Assembly: GCA_904377845.1 (NCBI GenBank)
Contig: CAJFGR010000023.1
Span: 1 to 42,278, forward strand
From: an uncultured Ruminococcus sp.
GTDB taxonomy: Bacteria; Bacillota; Clostridia; Lachnospirales; Lachnospiraceae
DNA length: 42,278 bases
Direction of reading: 5' to 3'
The notes under the pieces are model-generated. The model made no database searches, had not been told where the DNA came from, and saw only the letters and a program-made list of their open reading frames with translations. Positions 4,353-29,862 of this stretch are shown piece after piece. Position 1 is the stretch's first letter. Each line of letters begins with the position of its first letter. Position numbers and translations under genes: made by a program.

Positions 4353-6394
4353 GTGGAAAAGTGATAAATGTGGGATTTATCGGCAATCCGAACTGCGGAA
4401 AGACGACATTGTTCAACGCCTACACCGGAGCAAATCTGAAAGTGGCGAACTGGCCGGGCGTTACGGTGGAGAAGAAAGAAGGCTATACAACCTACAAGGG
4501 ACAGGAGTTCAAGCTGATCGATCTGCCCGGTATTTACAGCCTGACTTCTTATACAATGGAAGAAAAGGTGTCCCGTGAGTGCATTATGAGCGATGAGGTA
4601 GACGTAATCGTGGATGTAGTGGATGCGTCCTGTCTGGAACGAAACCTGTACCTGACACTGCAGCTCATTGAGCTTGGAAAACCGGTTGTTCTGGCGCTCA
4701 ACATGATGGATATCGTGGAAGAGCGAGGGATGGAGATCGACCTTCACCGTCTGCCCGAGATGCTCGGCATTCCTGCGATTCCTGTATCGGCGAGAAAACG
4801 TACGGGGCTTGAGATCCTGCTCCATGCAGTGGCTCATCACAAAGAATATGCAAAGCAGGGGCCTTTTATCCATCATCATTCGGATCAAACGGGACACAAA
4901 CACAATCACCACAGCGAGTATGCCATGGTGTATGACGACGAAATAGAGGATAAGATCGATGCGATTATCGAACAGTTCCGCGAGAAATATCCTGAGATGG
5001 ACAATATGCGCTGGCACGCCATTAAGACGCTCGAGCAGGATGATACGGTAATGAAGAAATATCCTGTCGATACGGCAGGGATTGCGGACCGGAGCTATGA
5101 GAAAGATATTATTAATGAAAAATATGATTTTATAGAAGAAGTGATCGACGAAACACTTGTCAATAAAAGTGCAAAGGCGGAACAGACAGACCGTATTGAC
5201 CGTTTTATGACGAGCAGGTGGCTGGGACTTCCGATCTTTCTTGTGATCATGGCACTGGTATTTTTCCTGACATTTACGGTGGGTGACTGGCTGAAGGGAT
5301 ACTTCGAGACAGGGCTTGATCTTCTGACTGGAGCGGTGAGTGCAGGACTTGAGGCGGCGGGTACATCCCCGATGCTCAATTCATTGTTGGTGGACGGTAT
5401 TATCTCCGGTGTGGGCGGCATCCTTACATTCCTGCCGAATATCTTCATCCTGTTCCTTGCGCTTGCTTTTCTTGAGGACAGTGGTTATATGTCGAGGGTA
5501 GCGTTCGTCATGGATGACATCATGAGCCATCTTGGACTCTCAGGAAGGGCGTTCCTGCCCATGCTGCTGGGATTCGGGTGTTCCGTTCCAGCGGTCATGG
5601 CGTCGCGTGCGCTGGAGCACCGGAAAGACAGACTGAAGACGATCCTTGTGACGCCGTTTATGTCATGCAGCGCCAGACTGCCGATTTATGTACTGTTCTC
5701 TTCGATGTTTTTCGGGGAAAATGCAATGCTGGTATGTTACTCAATGTATCTGCTGGGAATTATAATCGCGATCCTGACGGCATTTATCATTTCAAAGATT
5801 GACGGCAGCAAGGCGGAACACGCGCTGCTCATTGAGCTGCCCGAATATAAAGCACCGAATGCACGTACGATTGCGGTATATGTATGGGAGAAAGTGAAAG
5901 ATTATCTGACAAAAGCAGGAACGGTTATTTTCCTTGCATCGATCATTATGTGGGTGATCCTGAATTTTGGCCCGACCGGTTATGTGACAGACATTGCAGA
6001 CAGCTTCGGCTCGATCATAGGAAAAGCGATCGTACCGTTCTTCCGTCCGCTTGGACTGGGCTATTGGCAGATCGTGGTTGCACTTATTTCCGGAATCGCG
6101 GCAAAGGAAGTCGTGGTGTCAAGCTGCAGCGTGCTTTTCGGAATACAGAATATCACCACATCCCACGGTATGGACAGCTTTGTGGCTACGCTCGGGGCAA
6201 TGGGCTTCGGCGCGGCAAATGCATATGCACTGATGGTATTCTGTCTGCTGTATGTGCCCTGTACGGCGACGATAGCCACGATCCACAGAGAAGTGGGAAG
6301 CAAGAAGCTGACCTGTGGAATTGTCCTGTTTCAGCTGGCGGTTGCATGGGTGGTAAGCTTTATTGCATTCCACATAGCCGGACTGATTTTGTGA
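4349..6394 (+). CDS. feoB: Ferrous iron transport protein B
   Basis: A 681-residue Fe2+ transporter with an N-terminal GTPase domain and a C-terminal membrane domain. Visible GTPase motifs are GNPNCGKTT (residues 12-20), DLPG (58-61) and NMMD for guanine recognition. A His-rich stretch (HHHSDQTGHKHNHH, about 175-188) sits between the GTPase and membrane parts and may bind metal. The two Gate regions are recognisable, the first around LTFLPNIFILFLALAFLEDSGYMSR and the second near GIAAKEVVVSSC. No feoC follows; the next gene is convergent. Length is normal for Firmicutes. Confidence 0.95.
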   Translation: MSGKVINVGFIGNPNCGKTTLFNAYTGANLKVANWPGVTVEKKEGYTTYKGQEFKLIDLPGIYSLTSYTMEEKVSRECIMSDEVDVIVDVVDASCLERNLYLTLQLIELGKPVVLALNMMDIVEERGMEIDLHRLPEMLGIPAIPVSARKRTGLEILLHAVAHHKEYAKQGPFIHHHSDQTGHKHNHHSEYAMVYDDEIEDKIDAIIEQFREKYPEMDNMRWHAIKTLEQDDTVMKKYPVDTAGIADRSYEKDIINEKYDFIEEVIDETLVNKSAKAEQTDRIDRFMTSRWLGLPIFLVIMALVFFLTFTVGDWLKGYFETGLDLLTGAVSAGLEAAGTSPMLNSLLVDGIISGVGGILTFLPNIFILFLALAFLEDSGYMSRVAFVMDDIMSHLGLSGRAFLPMLLGFGCSVPAVMASRALEHRKDRLKTILVTPFMSCSARLPIYVLFSSMFFGENAMLVCYSMYLLGIIIAILTAFIISKIDGSKAEHALLIELPEYKAPNARTIAVYVWEKVKDYLTKAGTVIFLASIIMWVILNFGPTGYVTDIADSFGSIIGKAIVPFFRPLGLGYWQIVVALISGIAAKEVVVSSCSVLFGIQNITTSHGMDSFVATLGAMGFGAANAYALMVFCLLYVPCTATIATIHREVGSKKLTCGIVLFQLAVAWVVSFIAFHIAGLIL

Positions 6395-6482
6395 TGAAAG
6401 AAGCGGTTCCCGGTACTGCCGTGCCAATATGGTGATACTGTTATTGCTATTGTGAAAGTCCGGTATTGCTACAGGTTAAAGT

Positions 6483-7235
6483 TTAATATTGTACAGATTT
6501 GAGCAGGAGTCCTTTTGCTTCGCAGGGGGCGCCTGCTTTTTCTGTCCCCTCGAGAATACGCAGTATACTTTCCGGAGCCCGTTTCCTCTGACCGGTCTCA
6601 AGGAGGGTTCCAACGATCAGAGAAGGCATCCGGTATAGAAAATCATTTGCAGTAAGAGAGATGATAAGCGTATCTGTATCATTGGCTGTATTATCAGACT
6701 TCCGAAATGAGATTTCCAGCAGTTCTTTCTCTGTTCCCTTTTTTTTCTTTGCACCAGAGAAGAAACGGAAATCATGGCGCCCTTTCAAATATCCTGCCGC
6801 AGTCTCCATGGCACTGATATCCGGTGCGGGACAGAGGTGAGCTGTATATGCGGCTGTAAAGATGTTGTAGACAGGAGCGGTACAGATCCGGTATTCGTAT
6901 GTGCGCGACTGTGCATTCAGATCGGCGCGGAATCGGTCCGGTGCAGCTTCGCAGCGAAGAATGCGGATATCCATGGGAAGATAATGATCCAGATTCTGCT
7001 GGAGCATTTTCATATCAGGCAAAGAATCCGCGGCAAAGCTGACAGTCTGTTCCAGAGCGTGCACACCAGGCTCGGTCTTAGCGCCCGCGTAGAGCGTGAC
7101 CGGACCACCTGTCATTTTTTCCAGAACAGAGGATAGTCTGTATGCAATTGTTTTGGGATAACCGTCCTTTTCCGGACGCTGCCAGCCCAGATAACGGCTC
7201 CCGTCATATTGGAGTGTGAGTCTGATATTTGCCAT
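6483..7235 (-). CDS. TruA-like tRNA pseudouridine synthase with altered catalytic motif
   Basis: A 250-residue protein with the TruA fold: RLTLQYDGSRYLGWQRP at the N-terminus, the SRTYEYRI strand, and RHDFRFFSGAK and NDFLYRMPSLIVGTLLETGQ at the C-terminus. TruA normally makes pseudouridine at positions 38-40 of tRNA using the Asp of GRTDxGVHA. Here that segment reads GAKTEPGVHA, so the expected Asp is Glu55 and the preceding Arg is Lys53. I start at 7235 (MANIRLT), where homology begins, rather than at the upstream Met. Likely a second, diverged TruA paralogue. Whether it is active is open. Confidence 0.8.
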   Translation of the reverse strand: MANIRLTLQYDGSRYLGWQRPEKDGYPKTIAYRLSSVLEKMTGGPVTLYAGAKTEPGVHALEQTVSFAADSLPDMKMLQQNLDHYLPMDIRILRCEAAPDRFRADLNAQSRTYEYRICTAPVYNIFTAAYTAHLCPAPDISAMETAAGYLKGRHDFRFFSGAKKKKGTEKELLEISFRKSDNTANDTDTLIISLTANDFLYRMPSLIVGTLLETGQRKRAPESILRILEGTEKAGAPCEAKGLLLKSVQY

Positions 7236-7361
7236 GTTTGTCTCGCTTTCATCGGTTTGTATCCTGAATTTCTGTTCGTTTACAGCATAAGCTATATGCT
7301 GATAAGTTGTTGAGAACATTGTAAAGGAAGAAAAGAAACTTGACAAGAGCAGTGTGCAGGC

Positions 7362-7390
7362 TTGTTTTCAAAAGCCGCTGTTGTTACAAT
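7362..7390 (+). promoter_or_regulatory. Possible promoter of the thioesterase gene
   Basis: TTGTTT (7362-7367), a 17-base spacer and TACAAT (7385-7390), 44 bases before the ATG. A TTGACA at 7340-7345 lacks a good -10 box at standard spacing. The intergenic region also serves the divergent truA-like gene and holds the small palindrome CAGCATA..TATGCTG near 7286-7303. Confidence 0.45.
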
Positions 7391-7434
7391 AGAAAATAAT
7401 ATAAAATAAAATATGTAAAATCGGAGATAAAATT

Positions 7435-7911
7435 ATGTCAGAAAAAAGAAAAGTATCAGATTCGCAGGTGGAAATTGTCCGGCTTGTGCGTCCGAATCAT
7501 CTGAACTCTGCGGGAAGGCTGTTCGGAGGTATGCTCATGCAGTGGCTTGATGAAGCTGCAGGAATGGTAGCGATGCGTCATACGAGAACTAATGTGATAA
7601 CTGCTTCGGTGGATAATCTGAGATTTATCCATGGAGCTTATAATGGAGAGATGATTGTTATAGTCGGGAAAGTGACGTTCGTAGGGCGTACGTCGCTGGA
7701 AGTCAGGCTTGATACTTATGTAGAACATCTTGAGAATGGGATGCGCCATCCGATCAATCGGGCATATTTTACAATGGTGGCTCTGGATGAAAATGATAAA
7801 CCCACACCTGTCCCCGGACTAATCCTTGAGACAGAGGCGGAAAAAGCAGAGTGGGAAGCAGCACAGAAAAGACGGAAAATGAGGATGCGAAGAAAAGAGG
7901 AGGGATTTTAA
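7435..7911 (+). CDS. Acyl-CoA thioesterase, hotdog fold
   Basis: A 158-residue single-hotdog acyl-CoA hydrolase of the YciA/BACH group. It hydrolyses acyl-CoA thioesters in the cytoplasm. The diagnostic N-terminal stretch is RPNHLNSAGRLFGGMLMQWLDEAA with the active-site Asp/Glu, then VTASVDNLRFIHGA-like and GKVTFVGRTSLEV strands. The C-terminus is a basic tail (KRRKMRMRRKE). The start is preceded by GGAGATAAAATT. The inverted-repeat element begins right after its stop codon. The precise chain-length preference cannot be inferred. Confidence 0.85.
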   Translation: MSEKRKVSDSQVEIVRLVRPNHLNSAGRLFGGMLMQWLDEAAGMVAMRHTRTNVITASVDNLRFIHGAYNGEMIVIVGKVTFVGRTSLEVRLDTYVEHLENGMRHPINRAYFTMVALDENDKPTPVPGLILETEAEKAEWEAAQKRRKMRMRRKEEGF

Positions 7912-8155
7912 ATCCCGATTTTTCGTATCGGCTGATGTTACGCACAACATCTGGACACAGACACCTACTGCAGTCTGACTCACGTATCCACAGACAGAGA
8001 AAAAGATTAATACCGGCTCCGGTTACTTGGAGTTATTTCCCTCTACAGTCGCCGTCCTTAATCTTTTTCTCTGTCTGTGGATACGTGAGTCAGTCATTCC
8101 GTATTTAACCACTTTTCAAATGATTTTCTACTCCTGAGCCGGTATGAAAAATCGG
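7912..8155. repeat. About 240-bp inverted-repeat element, copy 1
   Basis: The ends match as inverted repeats: CCGATTTTTCGTATCGGCT at 7916-7934 versus AGCCGGTATGAAAAATCGG near 8137-8155, with one or two differences. Inside is a perfect 35-bp inverted repeat (7976-8010 against 8058-8092) around a 47-bp loop. The central left part (7935-7975) is unrelated to its right counterpart (8093-8136). Copy 2, at the right end of the window, has the fully matching left arm. No protein is encoded. It fits a MITE-like or palindromic intergenic repeat. Confidence 0.8.
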
Positions 8156-20359: not shown

Positions 20360-20432
20360 GCCGGAATAGCTCAGTCGGTAGAGCACTTCACTCGTAATGA
20401 AGGGGTCGTCAGTTCAAGTCTGATTTCCGGCT
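20360..20432 (+). tRNA. tRNA-Thr, anticodon CGU
   Basis: A 73-base cloverleaf. The acceptor stem pairs GCCGGAA with TTCCGGC, with a T discriminator. The D-arm is AGCTC..GAGC. The anticodon arm CTTCA-CTCGTAA-TGAAG gives anticodon CGU, reading ACG. The T-arm contains GTTCAAGTC. The 3' CCA is not encoded. Its own promoter and a strong terminator flank it, so it is transcribed alone. Confidence 0.95.
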
Positions 20433-20557: not shown

Positions 20558-20953
20558 ATGAAACCATCAGAGGAAACAATACGGCTGTTTCAGAATGACC
20601 GGTTTGCGACAGAAAACGGTGCGGTTATAGAAGAAGTGGATGATCACTATGCAAAATGCAGTCTGATGATTGAGGACAGGCATCGCAACGCCATGGGAGC
20701 GGTAATGGGAGGAGTCTATTTTACCCTTGCTGATTTTGCATTGGCAGTGGCAAGCAACTGGCAGAAGATGGGAAATGTTTCGTTGAATTCCGAGATTACA
20801 TATCTGACGCCTGCTAAAGGGAACAAGCTGACTGCAGAGGCGGTCTGTGTCAAAAACGGAAGAACGACGGGATATTACAGGATTGATATAAAAGATGATG
20901 AGGGAAATCTAGCAGCGGCGGTTACATCTACAACATACTGCGTGGCAAAATAA
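20558..20953 (+). CDS. PaaI family thioesterase (hotdog fold)
   Basis: A 131-residue single-domain hotdog thioesterase. The N-terminal helix and the HRNAMGAVMGGVYFTLADFALAVASN segment, with the active-site Asp, are typical of PaaI/YbgC-like acyl-CoA thioesterases, followed by NSEITYLTPAKGNKLTAEA. ATG 20558 has AAAGGAGAACAAC upstream; the in-frame start at 20519 does not. The substrate is unknown. Confidence 0.85.
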   Translation: MKPSEETIRLFQNDRFATENGAVIEEVDDHYAKCSLMIEDRHRNAMGAVMGGVYFTLADFALAVASNWQKMGNVSLNSEITYLTPAKGNKLTAEAVCVKNGRTTGYYRIDIKDDEGNLAAAVTSTTYCVAK

Positions 20954-21022
20954 GGACTTTTACGGAAGAGATGTTTTGGTGACAGTACAAAGTATTTGCG
21001 AAGAAAGGGGATATTAAAGCAT

Positions 21023-22147
21023 ATGGAAAAGTCAAAAGTATTTTTTACGGATATGCGTGCTCTTCCAGGCACAAACCTTCCGGACAAATTAAAAAAACTG
21101 ATCCGCAAAGCGGGAATCGGTGGGATTGATTTCGAAAAGAAGATGACTGCAATCAAGATTCACTTCGGAGAGCCGGGAAATCTTTCTTTCCTGCGTCCGA
21201 ACTATGCGAAAGCAGTGGCAGATGTAGTGAAAGAGCTGGGCGGGCGTCCGTTTCTGACGGACTGCAATACACTCTATGTCGGCAGAAGAAAGGATGCGCT
21301 TGAACACTTGAGTGCCGCATATGAAAACGGGTTTAATCTTCTCTCTACAGGATGTCATATTATCATCGGAGACGGACTGAAAGGAACCGACGACGTCAGC
21401 ATCCCTGTGGAGGGCGGAACCCTGGTTAAAGAAGCCAAGATCGGAAAGGCCATTATGGACGCAGATGTGTTTATCAGTCTTTCGCATTTTAAAGGTCATG
21501 AGATGACAGGATTCGGGGGATGCTTCAAAAATATCGGTATGGGCTGCGGAAGCCGTGCGGGAAAGATGGAGCAGCACAACAGCGGAAAGCCATCGGTTGA
21601 TCAGTCTGTCTGCGTGGGATGCCGCGTCTGTTCCAGAAACTGCGCTCATGACGCAATCTCATTCCCGGAGAGGAAAGCCTTCATCGACCATGAAAAATGT
21701 GTGGGATGCGGCCGATGTCTCGGAGCCTGTAATTTTGATGCTATTTATAATGAAAATTCTTCAGCGGTAAAGGAATTGAACATCAAGATGGCAGAGTACA
21801 CGAAGGCTGTTGTGTCGGGACGTCCGGCATTTCATATCAGTCTGGTGATTGACGTATCGCCTTACTGTGACTGCCACCCTGAAAATGATGTTCCGATCCT
21901 GCCGGATGTGGGAATGTTTGCAAGCTTTGACCCGGTGGCTCTGGATCAGGCCTGTGCCGATGCGTGCAATGCACAGCAGCCGGTGAGGGGGAGTCTTCTG
22001 GATGAACATATCCACGAGGAGGGCTTCTGCGATCACCACGACCATTTCACGAATACTACACCGGAGAGTGAGTGGGAGACCTGTCTTGCCCACGCGGAGG
22101 AGATCGGTCTGGGCAGCAGGGAGTATGAATTGATCGAGGTGAAGTAA
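21023..22147 (+). CDS. DUF362 protein with two 4Fe-4S clusters
   Basis: A 374-residue cytoplasmic protein. Residues 1-180 are the DUF362 domain (IKIHFGEPGNLSFLRP, LTDCNTLYVGRRKDA, ISLSHFKGHEMTGFGGCFKNIGMG). They are followed by a ferredoxin module with two cluster motifs, CVGCRVCSRNC and CVGCGRCLGAC, and a C-terminal part of the same DUF362 fold. DUF362 proteins are widespread in anaerobes and their reaction is not settled; electron transfer is inferred from the clusters. ATG 21023 is chosen; AAAGGGGA lies somewhat far upstream. Confidence 0.88.
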   Translation: MEKSKVFFTDMRALPGTNLPDKLKKLIRKAGIGGIDFEKKMTAIKIHFGEPGNLSFLRPNYAKAVADVVKELGGRPFLTDCNTLYVGRRKDALEHLSAAYENGFNLLSTGCHIIIGDGLKGTDDVSIPVEGGTLVKEAKIGKAIMDADVFISLSHFKGHEMTGFGGCFKNIGMGCGSRAGKMEQHNSGKPSVDQSVCVGCRVCSRNCAHDAISFPERKAFIDHEKCVGCGRCLGACNFDAIYNENSSAVKELNIKMAEYTKAVVSGRPAFHISLVIDVSPYCDCHPENDVPILPDVGMFASFDPVALDQACADACNAQQPVRGSLLDEHIHEEGFCDHHDHFTNTTPESEWETCLAHAEEIGLGSREYELIEVK

Positions 22148-22251
22148 GTGCTCCCGGCAAAATACTGCGATGCACCGCCGGCATGGAAAAGCGGTTTGCG
22201 GGATAAGGCGCAGTTGCATAGTGAAAAAGGAAAAAAGAGAGGAAAGTAACA

Positions 22252-23622
22252 ATGAAAAGAGAAAAATTCGGTTCCCGTATCGGGTTCATCCTCATATCAG
22301 CAGGATGCGCCATCGGGCTGGGAAATGTATGGCGTTTCCCTTACATTACAGGACAATACGGCGGCGCGGCGTTCGTGCTCATCTATCTGGTGTGTCTCGT
22401 TCTGCTGGGGCTGCCGATCATGATTATGGAGTTTTCCATCGGACGCGGCGCGGGCTGCAGTATTGCACGCGCGTTTGATAGACTGGAACCGCTGGGAACA
22501 AAATGGCACTGGTACAAATGGTTCGGCATTGCAGGAAATTATCTGCTGATGATGTTCTATACAACGATTGGCGGATGGCTGCTGATTTACCTGTTCAAGA
22601 TGGGGGCAGGCAGCTTCGAGGGTATGGATGCGTCACAGATCGAGGGGGCGTTCGGCGACCTGATGGGACAGCCGGTTCTTATGACCGTGTGTATGGCAAT
22701 TGTGGTGATCATGTGTTTCGGTATCGTAAGTCTCGGCCTTCAGAAAGGTGTGGAGGGCATTACCAAGATTATGATGGTGCTTCTGTTCATCCTTCTGATC
22801 ATCCTGGCAATCCGGTCTATTTTGCTGCCGGGCGCCGGAGCAGGACTTGAATTCTATCTTCTGCCGGACTTTGGCAAGATGAAAGAGGCGGGTATACTGG
22901 AAGTAGTATCTGCGGCCATGAATCAGTCTTTCTTTACGCTTAGCCTGGGAATCGGTGCGATGGCAATCTTCGGAAGTTATATTGATAAAAAGAGAAGGCT
23001 TGCAGGCGAGGCAGTGGCGATCACAGTGCTCGACACGTGTGTTGCCCTTATATCAGGCCTGATCATTTTCCCTGCCAGCTTTGCGTTCGGAGTAAATCCG
23101 GACAGCGGCCCGAACCTGATCTTCATCACCCTGCCGAATATCTTTAACTCCATGGCGGGCGGAAGACTCTGGGGAGCAATCTTTTTCCTCTGTATGTTCT
23201 TCGCATCGGCGTCCACGATTATCGCGGTGTTCGAGAATATTATCGCTTTCGCGATGGATCTGACCGGATGCTCCAGAGGAAAAGCAGTAGCTATCAATCT
23301 TGTGGCAATCCTGATTCTCTCTATGCCGTGCGTGCTCGGTTATAATGTGCTGAGCGGATTTGCACCGTTCGGAGAAGGATCGGCGATCCTTGATCTGGAA
23401 GACTTTATTGTAAGCAACAACCTTCTGCCGCTTGGAAGTCTTGTATATGTACTCTTCTGTACCACACGTTACGGATGGGGCTGGAAGAACTTCCTTGCCG
23501 AGGCAAATACAGGAGAAGGTCCGAAATTCCCCAAATGGGTAAGACCCTACGTAACCTTCATAGTACCCCTGATCGTAATCTTCCTGTTCATCCAGGGATA
23601 CTGGAGCAAATTTGCAGGCTAG
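22252..23622 (+). CDS. Sodium-dependent transporter, NSS/SNF family
   Basis: A 456-residue Na+-coupled symporter with about twelve transmembrane helices. Helix 1 carries the sodium-site motif ISAGCAIGLGNVWRFPYITGQYGG, and helix 2 ends MIMEFSIGRGAG. Bacterial NSS proteins of this length often import hydrophobic or aromatic amino acids; the substrate here is not known. GAGAGGAAAGTAAC precedes the ATG. A very long hairpin follows the gene. Confidence 0.9.
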   Translation: MKREKFGSRIGFILISAGCAIGLGNVWRFPYITGQYGGAAFVLIYLVCLVLLGLPIMIMEFSIGRGAGCSIARAFDRLEPLGTKWHWYKWFGIAGNYLLMMFYTTIGGWLLIYLFKMGAGSFEGMDASQIEGAFGDLMGQPVLMTVCMAIVVIMCFGIVSLGLQKGVEGITKIMMVLLFILLIILAIRSILLPGAGAGLEFYLLPDFGKMKEAGILEVVSAAMNQSFFTLSLGIGAMAIFGSYIDKKRRLAGEAVAITVLDTCVALISGLIIFPASFAFGVNPDSGPNLIFITLPNIFNSMAGGRLWGAIFFLCMFFASASTIIAVFENIIAFAMDLTGCSRGKAVAINLVAILILSMPCVLGYNVLSGFAPFGEGSAILDLEDFIVSNNLLPLGSLVYVLFCTTRYGWGWKNFLAEANTGEGPKFPKWVRPYVTFIVPLIVIFLFIQGYWSKFAG

Positions 23623-23635
23623 GCTCAAGCCGTGC

Positions 23636-23695
23636 GTCATAAAAAAGAGTATTCACATCATGCTTGCATGAATGTGGATGCTCTTTTTTTATGAC
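23636..23695. terminator. 60-base near-perfect hairpin after the NSS gene
   Basis: GTCATAAAAAAGAGTATTC.. pairs with ..GAATGTGGATGCTCTTTTTTATGAC over about 28 base pairs, with an ATGC-TT-GCAT tip. A- and T-runs within the arms give it terminator character in both directions. Its tip resembles the inner stem after bsh (ATGC-GA-GCAT). Confidence 0.8.
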
Positions 23696-23785
23696 ATAGG
23701 GCGCAGCCCGTGAGCGAGATGGAGCGCGGCCGGATCATTGAGATTGATCGGAAGCACTCCCTCTTTTATATTATACAGGGATCAG

Positions 23786-23891
23786 AATCGTTTCTTATAT
23801 AATTTCTCCACTACCCCGATCACCGCATACAGCCCCATCGCCATAATACACAGCAGCACGATCGACATGAGCAGCCAGTTCATCTTGAAAA
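23786..23891 (-). pseudogene. Orphan 3' fragment of the ABC permease gene (left edge of the cassette)
   Basis: On the minus strand this encodes FKMNWLLMSIVLLCIMAMG and the last residues VEKLYKKRF with a stop. It nearly duplicates the C-terminus of the permease at 28.1 kb (which ends VEKIYQKQF). From 23817 to 23892 there are only two differences from 28171-28246, and the innermost 52 bases are identical. The rest of the permease is absent here. It is best explained as the original gene end, cut off when the cassette arrived. Confidence 0.85.
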
Positions 23892-23977
23892 GGTGAAGGG
23901 ACAAAAAGACAAAATGACCATCGTCCGAGGAATATAGAAAGATGACAAGAATGGCGAAAAACGTTGAATGTGTCAGG

Positions 23978-24006
23978 TATACAAATTTTAATGAATACGG
24001 TATAAT
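23978..24006 (+). promoter_or_regulatory. Promoter of the MNT-HEPN operon
   Basis: TATACA (23978-23983), a 17-base spacer and TATAAT (24001-24006), about 44 bases before the MNT start. Confidence 0.6.
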
Positions 24007-24049
24007 AAAATACAAAATAAAAGGACTAAACTGAAAGAGGTGAGGTCAA

Positions 24050-24385
24050 ATGACGACAAATATTACAGAAATAATGCAGCAGTTTGCAGGCAGAGTGAGG
24101 GAACTTCTGGGAAATACCCTTGACAGCGTCATTGTATATGGGTCATATGCAAGAGGAGATTATTCTGAACTATCAGATATTGATGTGATGATTTTGGTTA
24201 CTCTGTCAGAGGAAAAAATAAAGAAAATATCTGATGAGATCAGTGACATGGCTTTTGAATATTTGATGAAATTCGGAGTAGATATTTCGCCGGTAATAAC
24301 TAATATAGACCATTTTAACTACTGGGTAGATAATCTACCCTACTATCGTAATGTAAGAGATGAGGGGGTAAGGCTTAGTGCATGA
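24050..24385 (+). CDS. MNT-type nucleotidyltransferase (antitoxin-like)
   Basis: A 111-residue minimal nucleotidyltransferase. The core VIVYGSYARGDYSELSDID has the GSxARG loop and the DxD metal-binding pair (about residues 30-47), and a third acidic residue lies in the FGVDISPVI strand. Proteins of this type sit beside HEPN toxins and block them, in known cases by adding AMP to the toxin. GAAAGAGGTGAGGTCAA precedes the ATG. It overlaps the damaged HEPN gene by eight bases. Composition is A+T-rich, unlike the housekeeping genes. Confidence 0.85.
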   Translation: MTTNITEIMQQFAGRVRELLGNTLDSVIVYGSYARGDYSELSDIDVMILVTLSEEKIKKISDEISDMAFEYLMKFGVDISPVITNIDHFNYWVDNLPYYRNVRDEGVRLSA

Positions 24386-24661
24386 TATCAATAAAGATAT
24401 AGAATTATCAAAGTACAGGTACTCTTTGGCGAAACAGACTTATAACAATGCGAAAATGTGTTTTGATAATGGGTTTTACAGAGATTGTATTAATCGCTCG
24501 TATTATGCGGTGTTTTATGCAATACGAGCTGTGCTGGCGTTAGAAAGTATAGACTTTATATTGCTTCTGCAGATGAAGCTCAAACACAGCTTCAGTCGGT
24601 TGAATATATGCTTCCGCTGCTAAAAGAATATTTAACAGGACATGGTGTAAAAATAATGTAA
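24378..24661 (+). pseudogene. HEPN-domain toxin gene with internal frameshifting deletion
   Basis: The first about 60 codons read as a HEPN domain (AKQTYNNAKMCFDNGFYRDCINRSYYAVFYAIRAVLALESID). The frame then runs into unrelated residues and stops at 24623. In another frame, from 24557, the expected C-terminus continues: YIASADEAQTQLQSVEYMLP..LKEYLTGHGVKIM, with its stop at 24659-24661. Together they make about 95 residues where 125-135 are usual, so about 30-40 codons between them are lost with a frame change. The missing part would include the H of the R-x4-6-H RNase motif. The toxin is probably dead. Confidence 0.75.
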
Positions 24662-24749
24662 ATTGCGGAACGCAGTTAAGGATTGTTACAGTGTGAAAAG
24701 TAAATTGAAATATACATATGAGGAGAAGCAGACGGATATGTTAGATATA
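24662..24749. other. Gap between the HEPN gene and the helicase fusion
   Basis: A short A+T-rich stretch. It probably held the promoter or start region of the large gene that follows; no intact start codon in the right frame with a binding site is evident. Nothing else was recognised. Confidence 0.4.
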
Positions 24750-27700
24750 CAGAGAGAAAAAATATCGAAAGACACATTAAGACACATTCAGAACGTTCTG
24801 CTGAAGATCATGCGGCAGTTGATGTTTTGAGGAGTTTTTTAAGGTCTAATGGTAAAATAAATACTGATTTTTCTTGTGACGATAAATGACCGAACACAGA
24901 TGGTACATTTGAGTTTGTCTCGAAGCCTTATATGTCAAGAAAGCCGGAACAAAATTTTTTTGTTCAGATTAAAGGAACTCATACATATACAGAAAAAGAT
25001 GGAGGAATTAAGTATTTATTAAAGAGTTTAGCTTTTCCTGCATTCATGCGTTATCGAGTGACGCTTGATCCAGGTATTCTTTTTGTTGTAATTAACCCTG
25101 ATGAACGCGGATATGAAAGAGTATTCTGGAAATATATGTCTATAGATTTTCTCCATTCACTTGACTTTAATAAGGAGAGTGCCACTATTTATTTTACAGC
25201 AGATGAGGAAATAGAGAATACAGAGGAAAGCATTGATAAATTTTGCGATAAACTAGAATATATTGCAAGCCAACATTCTTTTGCGGCTCAGTTAGATGAT
25301 ACAGATTATTCAAAGAGTGATATATATAGCATTATAAAAGAATGTGACAGACAGATTACAGAATGTATTGACAGAATGGAAATTTATAATGAAACCTGTG
25401 ATGATGTGTCAAAGAGAATGTTGACACGACTGAAGGATATAAGTGTTGCTGCACTGCTGCTCAATGCATTAAATGAAGGATATGAAAAAATAAGTATTCG
25501 TCTGGCATGGGAACGTTCGTTGCTGAACATAGAAACAAAATATCTTTGGGGGTTTTATAAAGCTTTAAAATATGTCGGCTACAGAATTCCCATGGAAGGT
25601 CAGTCAGAACGGCTGATGCTCAAATATTATGATTTCCTCTGGCAGATCAGAGATTCTTTTTGGAAAAATAATGAGTTAACAGTATTGCACAATTTGGAGA
25701 AATTTCCCCTTTGTATAGACAATACGGATAAGGAATATTATCGTTTGATATCTGTGGCAGTTGATTCTGCTGATAAAAGTTATAGAGCAGTAGAATCTTC
25801 AAGATTTTATGTGCAGAAAAAAACTCCTTTTTTTGTCGGAAAGGAAAGATATTATGAAGTCACTTTACAGCTGGCGGGGGTTTATGCTACAAAATACAAC
25901 AGGATAACTGCTTATACAAAAGAAAATATTTCAACAAATTATTCTGTTCAGATAAGTTATGTGGATGCTGAGATTAATTTGTGGGATATAAATACAAAGA
26001 TTAAAGTTATTACAAATTGGAAAGTATCGCTTGATCCAGTATGTTTAAATAAACTTGCTAAAATACTTAAGATACCTATGAGACTCAATTCAAAATACCG
26101 AGAGTATATAGAATTGATGAATTTCCTTACAAGAACCGGTATCAATTTTCTTGATCTGATAGATTTACAGGAAGTTAAGTTTTATACACTGATCGATCCT
26201 ATATACAACAGAACGAAAACTTCAGAATTTAGAAAAGTTCTGGTAGAACTGAAGAATCATTATTCTTCTGATTCGCAAAAACCAGGAAGGAATGTAATCA
26301 GGTATTTGTTACAGAACCTGCGAGAAGAAACGATAGAAAATGTATTGCCTACAAAATATACCCCCAAATGTTTGTGTGACAACTTGTTTTTGTCCAGCAG
26401 ATGTTTTCCATTTGAAAAAAATCCGTTTATATCTAATTTAGCCGGAAGCAGAACAAGTGAAGCAAACCATATCCGGCATATTGCAAGAGCGGCTGGATAT
26501 GACAGGATGGATGTGGCTCGTCCGTACTTGGTGATCAGAAACGCGATAAAGCAGACAGGTGAAATATATTTTGAAAATGGAATTGCAGAAACGGATGAAA
26601 TCAATGCGTATAATGCACAGTTGGATTGGTGGGAACGTAAACAAGGTTATAGTATAAAACAAGAAAATGGATTTGTAGGTATAGAACTTTACGAAAAGAC
26701 TACAATCAATATTCTTGAAAAGCTTATAAAGTTTTCTCATAGTGGAAATAAAGGGCAAAGACAGTATAACCAGAGGTTTATCAGAAATGGTGGAATCGGT
26801 TTTTCGGATGATCCATTGAAAATACAGGCTGTAAAAGAAGCTTTTGTTGATTCCCGCCTTTTACTGATTTACGGGGCTGCGGGAACTGGAAAGACAACAC
26901 TTATTAACTATATTTCTAATCTGATAGGTGGGCAGCGAAAACTGTTTCTTACGAAAACTCATACAGCATTACAAAACCTGAAAAGGCGTATTGTCAACCC
27001 GGGGCCGGCGTGTGATTTCCTGAGTATTGACAGTTTTACGAAAAAAGTGACACTTTCAGAATATGATATTATTTTCATTGATGAGTGTAGTACGATAGAT
27101 AATCAGACAATGAAAGTATTTCTGGAAAAATTGAGTCCTGATAGCTTTTTGGTTCTGGCTGGAGATATTTATCAGATTGAATCTATCGATTTTGGAAACT
27201 GGTTTTTTTACGCAAAAGATATTATAAAAACGCGCGGAGCTAAGATTGAATTGCTCAATACGTGGCGTACAGACGATCAATCGTTGATCAGCCTTTGGGA
27301 TGAAGTGAGGAAGCGTGATCCATTAATCACGGAAAAACTTGTTATTGATGGCCCTTTTTCAGAAAATATAGGTCCAAATGTATTGAGAAGGGAAGAAAAG
27401 GATGAGGTAATATTATGTCTTAATTATGATGGAAAATTTGGACTGAATAACATGAACAATTATTTTCAGACTGCAAATAAAAAGGGAAATGCTGTTTTTT
27501 GGAAAGAGTGGAGTTATAAGCCGGGGGATCCGATACTCTTTAATGAGACAAAACGGTTTCCTATCCTGCATAACAATTTGAAAGGGCACATTGTAGATAT
27601 AGTTAAATATGCTGATAGAATTACTTTTACTGTGGATGTTGAGATGAATCTGACAGAGATAGAATGTAAGAGAGAAGAACTGGAATTTATTGATGCTCTT

Positions 27701-28048
27701 GAGAACTCCACTCGCATAAGATTAACAGTATATACATACTAAAGTGGTATCCCTGGGCAGGATGAAGAGCTTGCTCGAATGAGATCAGTGATTCCGTTTC
27801 AGCTTGCTTATGCGGTTTCTATCCATAAGGCACAAGGTTTGGAATATGATTCTGTTAAGGTGATTATTCCGAACAGTAATTCAGAGAAAATAACTCATGG
27901 TATATTTTATACAGCTATTACGCGTGCAAAGAAACGGCTGAAAATATATTGGAGTGCGGAAACGATGGACAAAATTGTCAAAAGTTTTTCAGTGGACGAA
28001 ACGAAGCAGAGAAGCTTGGGAATTGTGAGATCAAAATTGGGAATATAA
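24750..28048 (+). pseudogene. DUF4365-like nuclease / SF1 helicase fusion, broken by stops and frameshift
   Basis: The largest intact frame is 24932-27742 (936 codons). Before it, a homologous-looking frame (ERSAEDHAAVDVLRSF from 24791) is interrupted by a frame change near 24840 and a TGA at about 24886. It then continues to KPEQNFFVQIKGTH, a DUF4365-type PD-(D/E)XK core with Q-x-K. Residues about 60-640 are a central region I do not recognise. The helicase follows: Walker A GAAGTGKTT (near 647), Walker B IIFIDECS (near 712) and GDIYQIE (near 744). A TAA at 27740 stops the frame, yet the same frame reopens to 28048 with SIHKAQGLEYDSV and FYTAITRAKKRL, helicase motifs V and VI. Intact, it would be about 1,100 residues. 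Known relatives are suspected phage-defence or restriction proteins. Confidence 0.8.
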
Positions 28049-28080
28049 AATTCATAGAATACAGAAAAAAGAAATTCTAA

Positions 28081-28129
28081 ATACCCTCAGACAAATTGAT
28101 CTTTAGAAATGTCTGAGGGTATGTTTTTT
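28081..28129. terminator. Terminator at the right end of the cassette
   Basis: ATACCCTCAGACA (28081-28093) and TGTCTGAGGGTAT (28110-28122) are a perfect 13-bp stem, followed by GTTTTTT on the plus strand. It separates the helicase from the convergent permease gene. Confidence 0.9.
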
Positions 28130-28135
28130 CAGATT

Positions 28136-28948
28136 TCAAAATTGCTTCTGATATATTTTCTCCACCAACCCGATCACCGCATACAGCACCATTGCCATAA
28201 TACACAGCAGCACGATCGACATGAGCAGCCAGTTCATCTTGAAAACCTGACTCGAATAGATAATAAGATACCCCAGCCCGTTCCTTGCTGCGAGAAATTC
28301 ACCGATCACGACACCCACGAGGCAGAGCCCGATGTTGACTTTCATGTTGCTGATGATCGCCGGGACTGAGCTTGGCAGCACGACTTTAAACAGTGCGTGT
28401 CTGCGGCTCCCATGAAGGGTGTATATAAGTTTGATCTTCTCTTTGTCGACTGTGGTAAAACTGGTATACAGGTTCATGATACTTCCGAATACGGCGACGG
28501 ACATACCGGCTACGATGATCGTTGTCGGGGTGGCCCCAAGCCATACGATCAGAAGCGGCGCCAGGGCAGATTTCGGCAGGCTGTTCAGTACCACCAGATA
28601 GGGTTCCAGTATTTCGGAAAGCCCCCGGCTGCACCAGAGCAGGACGGCGATCAGGATACCGGAGAAAGTTACTAACAGGAAACTCACGATCGTCTCATAC
28701 AGTGTGATTCCGATATGCAGGAAGATCGACCGGTCCAGTACCATTTCCCAGAAGCAGAGTGCGATCCGTGAGGGACTGCTGAAGATGAAGGAGTCGATAA
28801 TCCCGTAATCAGCGCATATCTCCCACAGAAGCAGAAACAGAATCAGGATAAGAATCCGGGCGGCACATACAATTATGCGGTGGCGGCGCAGTCTGTACAA
28901 AAAGAGTTCCTGTCCGTCAGAATGCTTTTTCAATGATTTGTCCATCAT
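28136..28948 (-). CDS. ABC transporter permease, NitT/TauT type
   Basis: A 270-residue inner-membrane permease with about six helices. The EAA-like loop is visible as IYTLHGSRRHALFKVVLPSSVPAIIS. The family (SsuC/TauC/ThiX-like) imports sulfonates, nitrate or thiamine precursors; the substrate cannot be told here. Its start, with AAGGAATTGAACC upstream, lies 32 bases inside the ATPase gene, so they are coupled. The last about 35 codons are duplicated at 23.8 kb. The present 3' end probably came with the cassette and differs from the older end at four positions near the C-terminus. Confidence 0.88.
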   Translation of the reverse strand: MMDKSLKKHSDGQELFLYRLRRHRIIVCAARILILILFLLLWEICADYGIIDSFIFSSPSRIALCFWEMVLDRSIFLHIGITLYETIVSFLLVTFSGILIAVLLWCSRGLSEILEPYLVVLNSLPKSALAPLLIVWLGATPTTIIVAGMSVAVFGSIMNLYTSFTTVDKEKIKLIYTLHGSRRHALFKVVLPSSVPAIISNMKVNIGLCLVGVVIGEFLAARNGLGYLIIYSSQVFKMNWLLMSIVLLCIMAMVLYAVIGLVEKIYQKQF

Positions 28949-29705
28949 GGTTCAATTCCTTCCATATTTCGTTAAAATAAGTCTTGAATTCGGGTGCATT
29001 TCTTCGGATCAGTGGCGTGTCATGCTCAAGATCAAATGATATCGGAACGATGCGGGCTACGGATGCCGGGCGTTTTGTCAGAATGATCACCCGGTCGGAG
29101 AGACTGACTGCCTCGGAGAGATCATGGGTGACCAGAAGGGCGGTCTTCCCGGATTTCCGGATGATCTGACCGATGTCATCGCTGACAGTCAGACGAGTCT
29201 GGTAGTCAAGGGCAGAGAATGGCTCATCAAGCAGCAGCAGTTCCGGTTCCAGAAGGAGCGTGCGGATAAGCGCCGCCCGCTGGCGCATACCGCCGGACAG
29301 TTCAGACGGTTTGGAGCGCGCAAACTGCTTCAAACCATACTGCTCAAGCATCTCTTCCGCACGTTTTTTGATTTCCGGTGTGAGCTGTCTGCCTATCTCT
29401 GCGCCGAGAAGAACGTTGCGGTATACAGTACGCCATTCAAAGAGATGGTCGTGCTGGAGCATATATCCGATCTTTGATGAATTTTCTGTCAAAGGTTCCC
29501 CGTTCATCAGCAGTTCCCCGCTCTCCGGCTTCATCAGACCGTCGATCAGGGAGAGCAGGGTCGATTTGCCGCATCCCGACGGGCCGACAACGGCCGTGAA
29601 CTCTCCTCTGGTAAGTGAAAATGAAATATTGGACAGGGCCTTTGTCTCCCCGTCCAATGTATGATAGGAATAATCAATTTTTTTTAATTCCAGTATTGGA
29701 GTCAT
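28917..29705 (-). CDS. ABC transporter ATP-binding protein, NitT/TauT type
   Basis: A 262-residue ATPase of the SsuB/TauB group that powers the adjacent permease. It has Walker A GPSGCGKST, the Q-loop YMLQHDHLFEW, the signature LSGGMRQRAAL, Walker B LLLLDEPFSALD and the switch LLVTHD. I use ATG 29705 (MTPILELK), because GGAAGTGACC precedes it; the ATG at 29723 has no site. No substrate-binding protein gene lies on either side, which is unusual for the family. Confidence 0.9.
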   Translation of the reverse strand: MTPILELKKIDYSYHTLDGETKALSNISFSLTRGEFTAVVGPSGCGKSTLLSLIDGLMKPESGELLMNGEPLTENSSKIGYMLQHDHLFEWRTVYRNVLLGAEIGRQLTPEIKKRAEEMLEQYGLKQFARSKPSELSGGMRQRAALIRTLLLEPELLLLDEPFSALDYQTRLTVSDDIGQIIRKSGKTALLVTHDLSEAVSLSDRVIILTKRPASVARIVPISFDLEHDTPLIRRNAPEFKTYFNEIWKELNHDGQIIEKAF

Positions 29706-29789
29706 AAGGTCACTTCCATCCATGTTGTATATCTATAGTTAGTGTATGAAAAAAAGAAATCCTGTGTGCGGGAAAAGTGCGAAATTCCG

Positions 29790-29818
29790 TTGTCTCGTCA
29801 GGGGAAGAGGGGTATAAT
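29790..29818 (+). promoter_or_regulatory. Promoter of the cytidylate-kinase-like gene
   Basis: TTGTCT (29790-29795), a 17-base spacer and TATAAT (29813-29818). Confidence 0.65.
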
Positions 29819-29862
29819 ATGAGTAACAGATGACGTGAAAAAACCGGAAAGGAGGAATCAAT

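Follow-up and report, generated by a model that had tools for sequence, protein, structure and literature searches.

The A+T-rich block beside an ABC transporter permease gene in the window (the whole 42,278-nt stretch analysed here, whose genome is labelled G000 in our comparisons) is probably a decayed defence-like cassette that derives from large serine recombinase (LSR) elements hitting one point in the permease, the window state arising when an array lost its LSR element. We put the probability of this reading at roughly 0.8. Comparison with relatives indicates that the window permease now ends in DNA that arrived with the block.

A repeat search of the region 22.5-30.5 kb returned a direct repeat of 126 nt at 87% identity (23771-23896 versus 28125-28250), the next entry listed spanning 30 nt at 70%. 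Of the 126-nt repeat, the right copy forms the end of the permease gene and the left copy an orphan 3' end that has a stop codon of its own. As the first-pass annotation had described, the two copies share 52 identical bases, end in a stop codon each and flank an A+T-rich block; the C-terminal tail is KLYKKRF for the copy at 23.78 kb and KIYQKQF for the permease, and the repeat measures about 108 bp from core to stop. A check of base composition proposed in that annotation gave 35.0% G+C for the block (23897-28130), whereas 119 overlapping segments of the same length outside it averaged 47.4% (sd 1.1). Open reading frames (ORFs) and Pfam matches confirmed the three kinds of gene that it had named in the block: the MNT gene is intact, and the HEPN and nuclease-helicase genes are broken (Table 1). 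It was also right that no integrase is left, in that no recombinase was found among the listed ORFs or among the four block ORFs scanned with Pfam. At the gathering threshold, Rfam matched the window once, to a tRNA at 20360-20432, and a search for near copies of 23600-29000 gave no match among 72,556 plasmid records. Hairpins like the one between permease and helicase also lie 3' of the permease end in several relatives.

Table 1. Features of the permease locus, in window coordinates.
Feature	Position	Strand	Evidence or remark
SNF-family symporter, native neighbour past the orphan end	22252..23622	+	
Old native permease 3' end, now orphaned, running from the TT core (23888-23889) to the stop codon	23782..23889	-	Collinear with L097/L098/L103, where the site is empty
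Relic attR arm (P half-site), class A serine-recombinase element	23890..23923	-	1 substitution from class A pattern
MNT-type nucleotidyltransferase, 111 aa, intact	24050..24385	+	PADLOC PDC-S09 (1.6e-23); 97% identical to G074 copy
HEPN gene, broken	24378..24623	+	81 aa ORF versus 137 aa in G074
Nuclease-helicase, larger piece of broken gene	24932..27742	+	G074 relative intact, 1111 aa, 95% identical over aligned length, PADLOC PDC-S53
Nuclease-helicase C-terminal piece, same broken gene	27779..28048	+	UvrD_C_2
Terminator-like hairpin between permease and helicase	28080..28122	.	Read by eye
ABC transporter permease, 270 aa, complete ORF, regenerated 3' end	28136..28948	-	ORF list, Pfam (BPD_transp_1)
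TT core of regenerated target site in permease (CAGGTT-TT-CAAGATG)	28242..28243	-	
ABC transporter ATP-binding protein, native neighbour upstream of permease	28917..29723	-	

The native arrangement was recovered from relatives. A scan of contigs carrying the permease gave 80 named loci, many of them too short or too distant for an empty site to be judged, and placed the window in or next to the genus Mediterraneibacter. Four loci (L097, L098, L103 and L118) have one permease end with the SNF symporter gene 128-241 bp beyond, and in L097 the window stretches 20558-23717, 23780-23889 and 28144-29851 are continuous without the block. Since these relatives lack the block, 23780-23889 is therefore the old native end, still beside its native neighbour. 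They supply the empty-site alleles that the first-pass annotation had advised seeking, with the native end continuing leftwards of 23780, and they bear out its proposal that the permease received a new C-terminus and left its old end at 23.8 kb. A second permease end is likewise absent from L094, where a motif downstream of the permease resembles what the window, G002 and G004 have past the orphan end. G194 carries the insertion on one contig and an empty allele, 88% identical, on another (L219 and L205), which probably represent two strains or species binned in one assembly. In the window (23690-23780), L097 and L096, GC-rich repeated motifs (CTCGCTCACGGGCTGCGCCC) occur in the short intergenic stretch ahead of the symporter gene; they look like a REP-type family of this genus.

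The target point is CAGGTn-TT, at codon 235/236 of 270 in the permease. We surveyed 58 Mediterraneibacter-group genomes with the last 70 permease residues as query and obtained matches in 51, of which we read the one in G080 as a 25% paralog, leaving 50 permease-bearing genomes. The permease is cut in eight (G011, G023, G034, G061, G069, G073, G074 and G081), and in all eight the break falls at the identical point, after CAGGTn (CAAGTn in G069), at TT. Seven genomes (G000, G002, G004, G014, G015, G064 and G065) have a complete permease with a trailing second piece of its 3' end; the piece in G014 lies on another contig, with merely about 35 bp still matching the permease, and that in G015 is without its core-adjacent part. 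Four more (G006, G020, G021 and G032) carry HEPN or MNT genes, intact or broken, directly 3' of the permease, and no second permease end was detected in them. On these comparisons the permease point is a recurrent hotspot with varied cargo at the same point in relatives, as the first-pass annotation had thought possible. Its account of entry needs correction: an element did enter the permease gene, but the crossover falls at the TT core (23888-23889 and 28242-28243) and not through the 52-bp segment, which forms the initial stretch of the permease 3' end, past the crossover point. In G054 (L065), from another family of the order, the permease 3' end is repeated 0.6 kb downstream, starting from about the same core, and two LSR queries found no match within the 17.5 kb examined.

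An LSR was present in all five truncating elements read through (G023, G011, G069, G074 and G081). At E<=1e-60 it was detected in six of the 58 genus genomes, all six among the eight with a cut permease (Fisher P 1.8e-6 over the 50 permease-bearing genomes); G061 and G073 have a cut permease and no LSR match, the site lying there on broken contigs. The G081 LSR (P0001 of G081) has Resolvase, Recombinase and Zn_ribbon_recom domains. Phage matches to the LSR were only distant or partial, the best by identity among those listed being a 14-kb faecal contig (MT836003; 61% over 46% of the query); the best of five viral-contig matches reached 44% and the best plasmid match 36%, and a phage origin of the LSR was dropped on these grounds. 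The large elements of G074 (L076/L077), G034 (L082) and G081 (L079-L081) share RecT, a YqaJ nuclease, DUF932 and a small resolvase, a set that we take as their recurring backbone, and an RtcB-like protein is common to the G074 and G034 elements.

The same association extends across the family. In 299 Lachnospiraceae genomes, one per genus by our tally, the permease was found in 150 (E<=1e-60) and the LSR in 17 (E<=1e-100). Thirteen of these 17 have the LSR and a permease cut near residue 236 on one contig, with the LSR partial in G199 and bearing one stop in G138. As for the other four, G135 has its permease in pieces with the LSR adjoining a fragment, G186 has the two genes on separate contigs, and G145 and G203 have a complete permease, with LSRs 38% and 35% identical. 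The comparison of breakpoints covered the 13, and all of them show the same breakpoint. The right ends of G343 and G187 have permease-like bases flanking the core as well, which leaves the crossover position there uncertain by about 9-14 bp. Short permease matches were seen in G217 and G353. Elements with different LSRs and different arms use one permease point across Lachnospiraceae, leaving the permease split. The first-pass annotation had expected an element to restore the gene with its own copy; intact elements instead cut it, in the eight genus genomes and the 13 other genera, and a restored end is seen in the structures made of cargo and a spare 3' end.

The arms of the elements are inverted repeats read inward. 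We tested 13 of the 17 elements with both ends seen (G282, G199, G187 and G343 were left out), and 11 beat all 2000 shuffles; the weaker arms of G011 were reached by 16 of 2000 shuffles and those of G069, which are not convincing, by 491 of 2000. The window retains one class A arm next to the orphan end (Table 1), and an attR arm is kept in six of the seven complete-permease genomes with a trailing piece, namely the six whose fragment retains the core. Judging by this layout, the arms behave as LSR attP half-sites around a 2-bp core. They resemble in this the att sites of A118-type serine integrases, for which inverted half-sites around a central dinucleotide are described, the A118 attP being pseudo-palindromic with 25-bp half-sites (PMC3783163, in the sections cited); the permease elements differ in having several arm classes that look unrelated in sequence by eye and one common target. 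Because an LSR occurs in five of five elements read through and most arms behave as attP halves, a target-specific transposon with terminal inverted repeats was rejected. In G081 (L079-L081; G081:C11, 6420-25385), about 19 kb separate the distal attR arm from another arm of the same class, which is joined to non-permease DNA; the genes between resemble flagellin, glycosyltransferase and sugar-biosynthesis genes by eye, and the second arm is perhaps a tandem insertion or an assembly rearrangement.

Several elements carry cargo that resembles anti-phage defence genes. With PADLOC we scanned cargo proteins of three genomes: six of G074, three of G065 and one of G015. The 26-kb element of G074 carries Lamassu at its left end (LmuB 4.6e-201, LmuA 4.1e-116) and Septu at its right end (PtuA 3.4e-165, PtuB 9.6e-67). 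The intact G074 copy of the window helicase matched PDC-S53 (7.7e-283), and the G065 cargo, whose ORFs are the same in G064, matched PDC-M07A/B and PDC-M42A, PDC models being candidate defence systems of unproven function. Two of the six G074 proteins and the single G015 protein had no PADLOC match. An MNT gene followed by a HEPN gene is also the order of the MntA-HepT type VII toxin-antitoxin, but the window MNT scores 27.9 bits against the MntA equivalog model, under the cut-off of 60, and the window HEPN is broken. By its gene content, the block appears to be a decayed cassette of defence-like genes. Directly past the second permease 3' end of the G074 locus (L078; G074:C2, about 5041-8000), ORFs reiterate the short peptide FKYISCYCLS, in what looks like a CRISPR array.

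Two genomes of different genera link intact elements to the arrangement in the window. In each, as read from the assemblies, a complete LSR element precedes a permease 3' end and cargo, and past the cargo lie a second attR arm and another 3' end. In G256, from another genus, a single contig runs from the cut permease through a 28-kb element, a 3' end, 2 kb of cargo and an attR arm to a second 3' end, and two of its cargo proteins are 66% and 71% identical to G065 counterparts. In G074 the order spans a contig break. The first contig leads from the cut permease through the 26-kb element to an attR arm with a permease 3' end, and stops in an apparent insertion sequence; the second starts with what appears to be the other end of one and half of the hairpin, followed by helicase, HEPN and MNT genes, all intact, and past MNT by an attR arm and a second permease 3' end. 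The insertion sequence was recognised by eye, and we infer that the two contigs join into one array. Either array minus its LSR element would give the window arrangement.

Some cassettes also appear to have crossed from species to species after the gene bodies had diverged. The permease body and the stretch past its stop are 79.0% and 94.1% identical between G000 and G014, 90.0% and 98.0% between G064 and G065, and 95.8% and 99.5% between G002 and G004; it is for these three pairs that such transfer is suggested. Fourteen pairs were compared, and five showed higher identity past the stop than within the body (over just 49 bp for G000/G024, and by a small margin for G020/G014); the other nine were less alike past the stop, including pairs with different cargo or deletions.

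We propose that a defence-like cassette would hitch-hike behind an LSR element inserted at the TT core of the permease, and that the LSR element would later leave through its own attL and the nearer attR. The permease would then end in the hitchhiker's 3' end, a fresh target, with the cargo remaining and the native 3' end left stranded at 23.78 kb. The arrays in two genera suggest, though they do not prove, that the permease is restored when an LSR element departs; we infer the excision and the order of events, and no excision event was seen in the genomes compared. In G014 the first 33 bp past the core are identical in both copies and the tail is module-like, so the array route needs gene conversion or a donor of the same clade there. 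The array model also leaves the first origin of cargo and spare 3' end unaccounted for. As a more tentative extension, the permease might be a self-renewing docking site, where arriving and leaving LSR elements maroon a cassette with a spare 3' end, gene and target are rebuilt, and defence cassettes build up in succession with the permease kept alive.

The same structures might instead have come about by homologous repair after LSR insertion, an incoming intact permease end replacing the left part of the element and sparing the cargo at its right end, the attR arm and the native end. This sequence of events is possible, if somewhat doubtful. None of the seven complete-permease genomes with a trailing fragment has an LSR at E<=1e-60, and their left arm was not found, the attR arm surviving wherever the core was kept; in the window, moreover, the tails of the two copies have a mosaic look, with no clean sorting into native and foreign, and the likeness of the G014 copies just past the core, with a module-like tail, points the same way. 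Repair would nevertheless need a second crossover in unrelated DNA within the element, and the hairpin-helicase junction common to G000, G014 and G074 (cut by the insertion sequence in G074) favours one event followed by transfer. G014 itself fits either the array route or the repair route, with gene conversion.

A cassette that moves by itself, as a circle of attR arm, permease 3' end and cargo entering the 3' end by homologous, Campbell-type integration, predicts the exact order seen in the window and would have repeats of about 108 bp from core to stop at its disposal. Sequence past the attR arm should then be alike across hosts, yet it differs in G000, G014 and G074, which makes this route improbable unless gene conversion followed. 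A tyrosine-recombinase island carrying a substitute gene end is the common textbook case, and the window does show a targeted gene 3' end with a substitute end present; it is nonetheless very improbable, since the recombinases found at this site belong to the serine family and an intact element splits the gene without restoring it. No tyrosine recombinase appeared in Pfam scans of the G081 LSR, the small resolvase and ten G074 element proteins. Deletion of a second permease gene or operon, with the left fragment as its remnant, has nothing in its favour beyond the fragment itself. We reject this reading on the evidence of the empty-site relatives, which are single-copy with collinear flanks, and of the start of the fragment at the insertion core beside an element arm.

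The array reading has close parallels in known systems. SCC/SCCmec and the Enterococcus cassette chromosome (ECC; CcrA/CcrB) are likewise moved by large serine recombinases into a single site within the coding gene rlmH, in its 3' part, so a protein-coding 3' end as a site for defence cargo, which the first-pass annotation thought would be new, is not new in principle; the same source, in the sections cited, also reports highly variable cargo and multiple attR copies in many ECCs and complex SCCs, with several attR sites in 16 of 32 ECCs (PMC6222049). Here, by contrast, the target is an ABC permease, the intact element cuts it at codon 235/236 of 270, the host is Lachnospiraceae, and the G081 LSR scores 72.6 bits against CcrB and 61.7 against CcrC (cut-off 900 each) with CcrA unmatched. 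The LSR clusters of Durrant et al. 2022 are alike in that diverse LSRs share one conserved site in one coding gene, 33 LSRs using a site in a prolyl isomerase gene; the words 'permease' and 'ABC transporter' have no occurrence in the main text of that paper, and its defence test, which found no enrichment, concerned target genes within or near defence genes and not cargo (PMC10083194). Neither a coding 3' end as target nor a target common to many LSRs is thus new. A mainly open-access literature search found no report of an LSR site in this permease, and 'Mediterraneibacter' with 'serine recombinase' returned 0 papers. As far as the literature searched goes, three findings are new: that this permease serves as a site throughout the family, that defence cargo lies at its ends, and that there are cassettes which have a spare gene end.

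The permease site offers a chromosomal address in common gut bacteria at which defence genes can be searched for systematically, and it allows direct comparison of empty, occupied, tandem and decayed states. LSRs with different arms and one target are also natural material for studying the separate recognition of attP and attB by serine integrases. Should the renewal model hold, it would explain how a coding gene can serve as a repeated landing site without loss of the gene.
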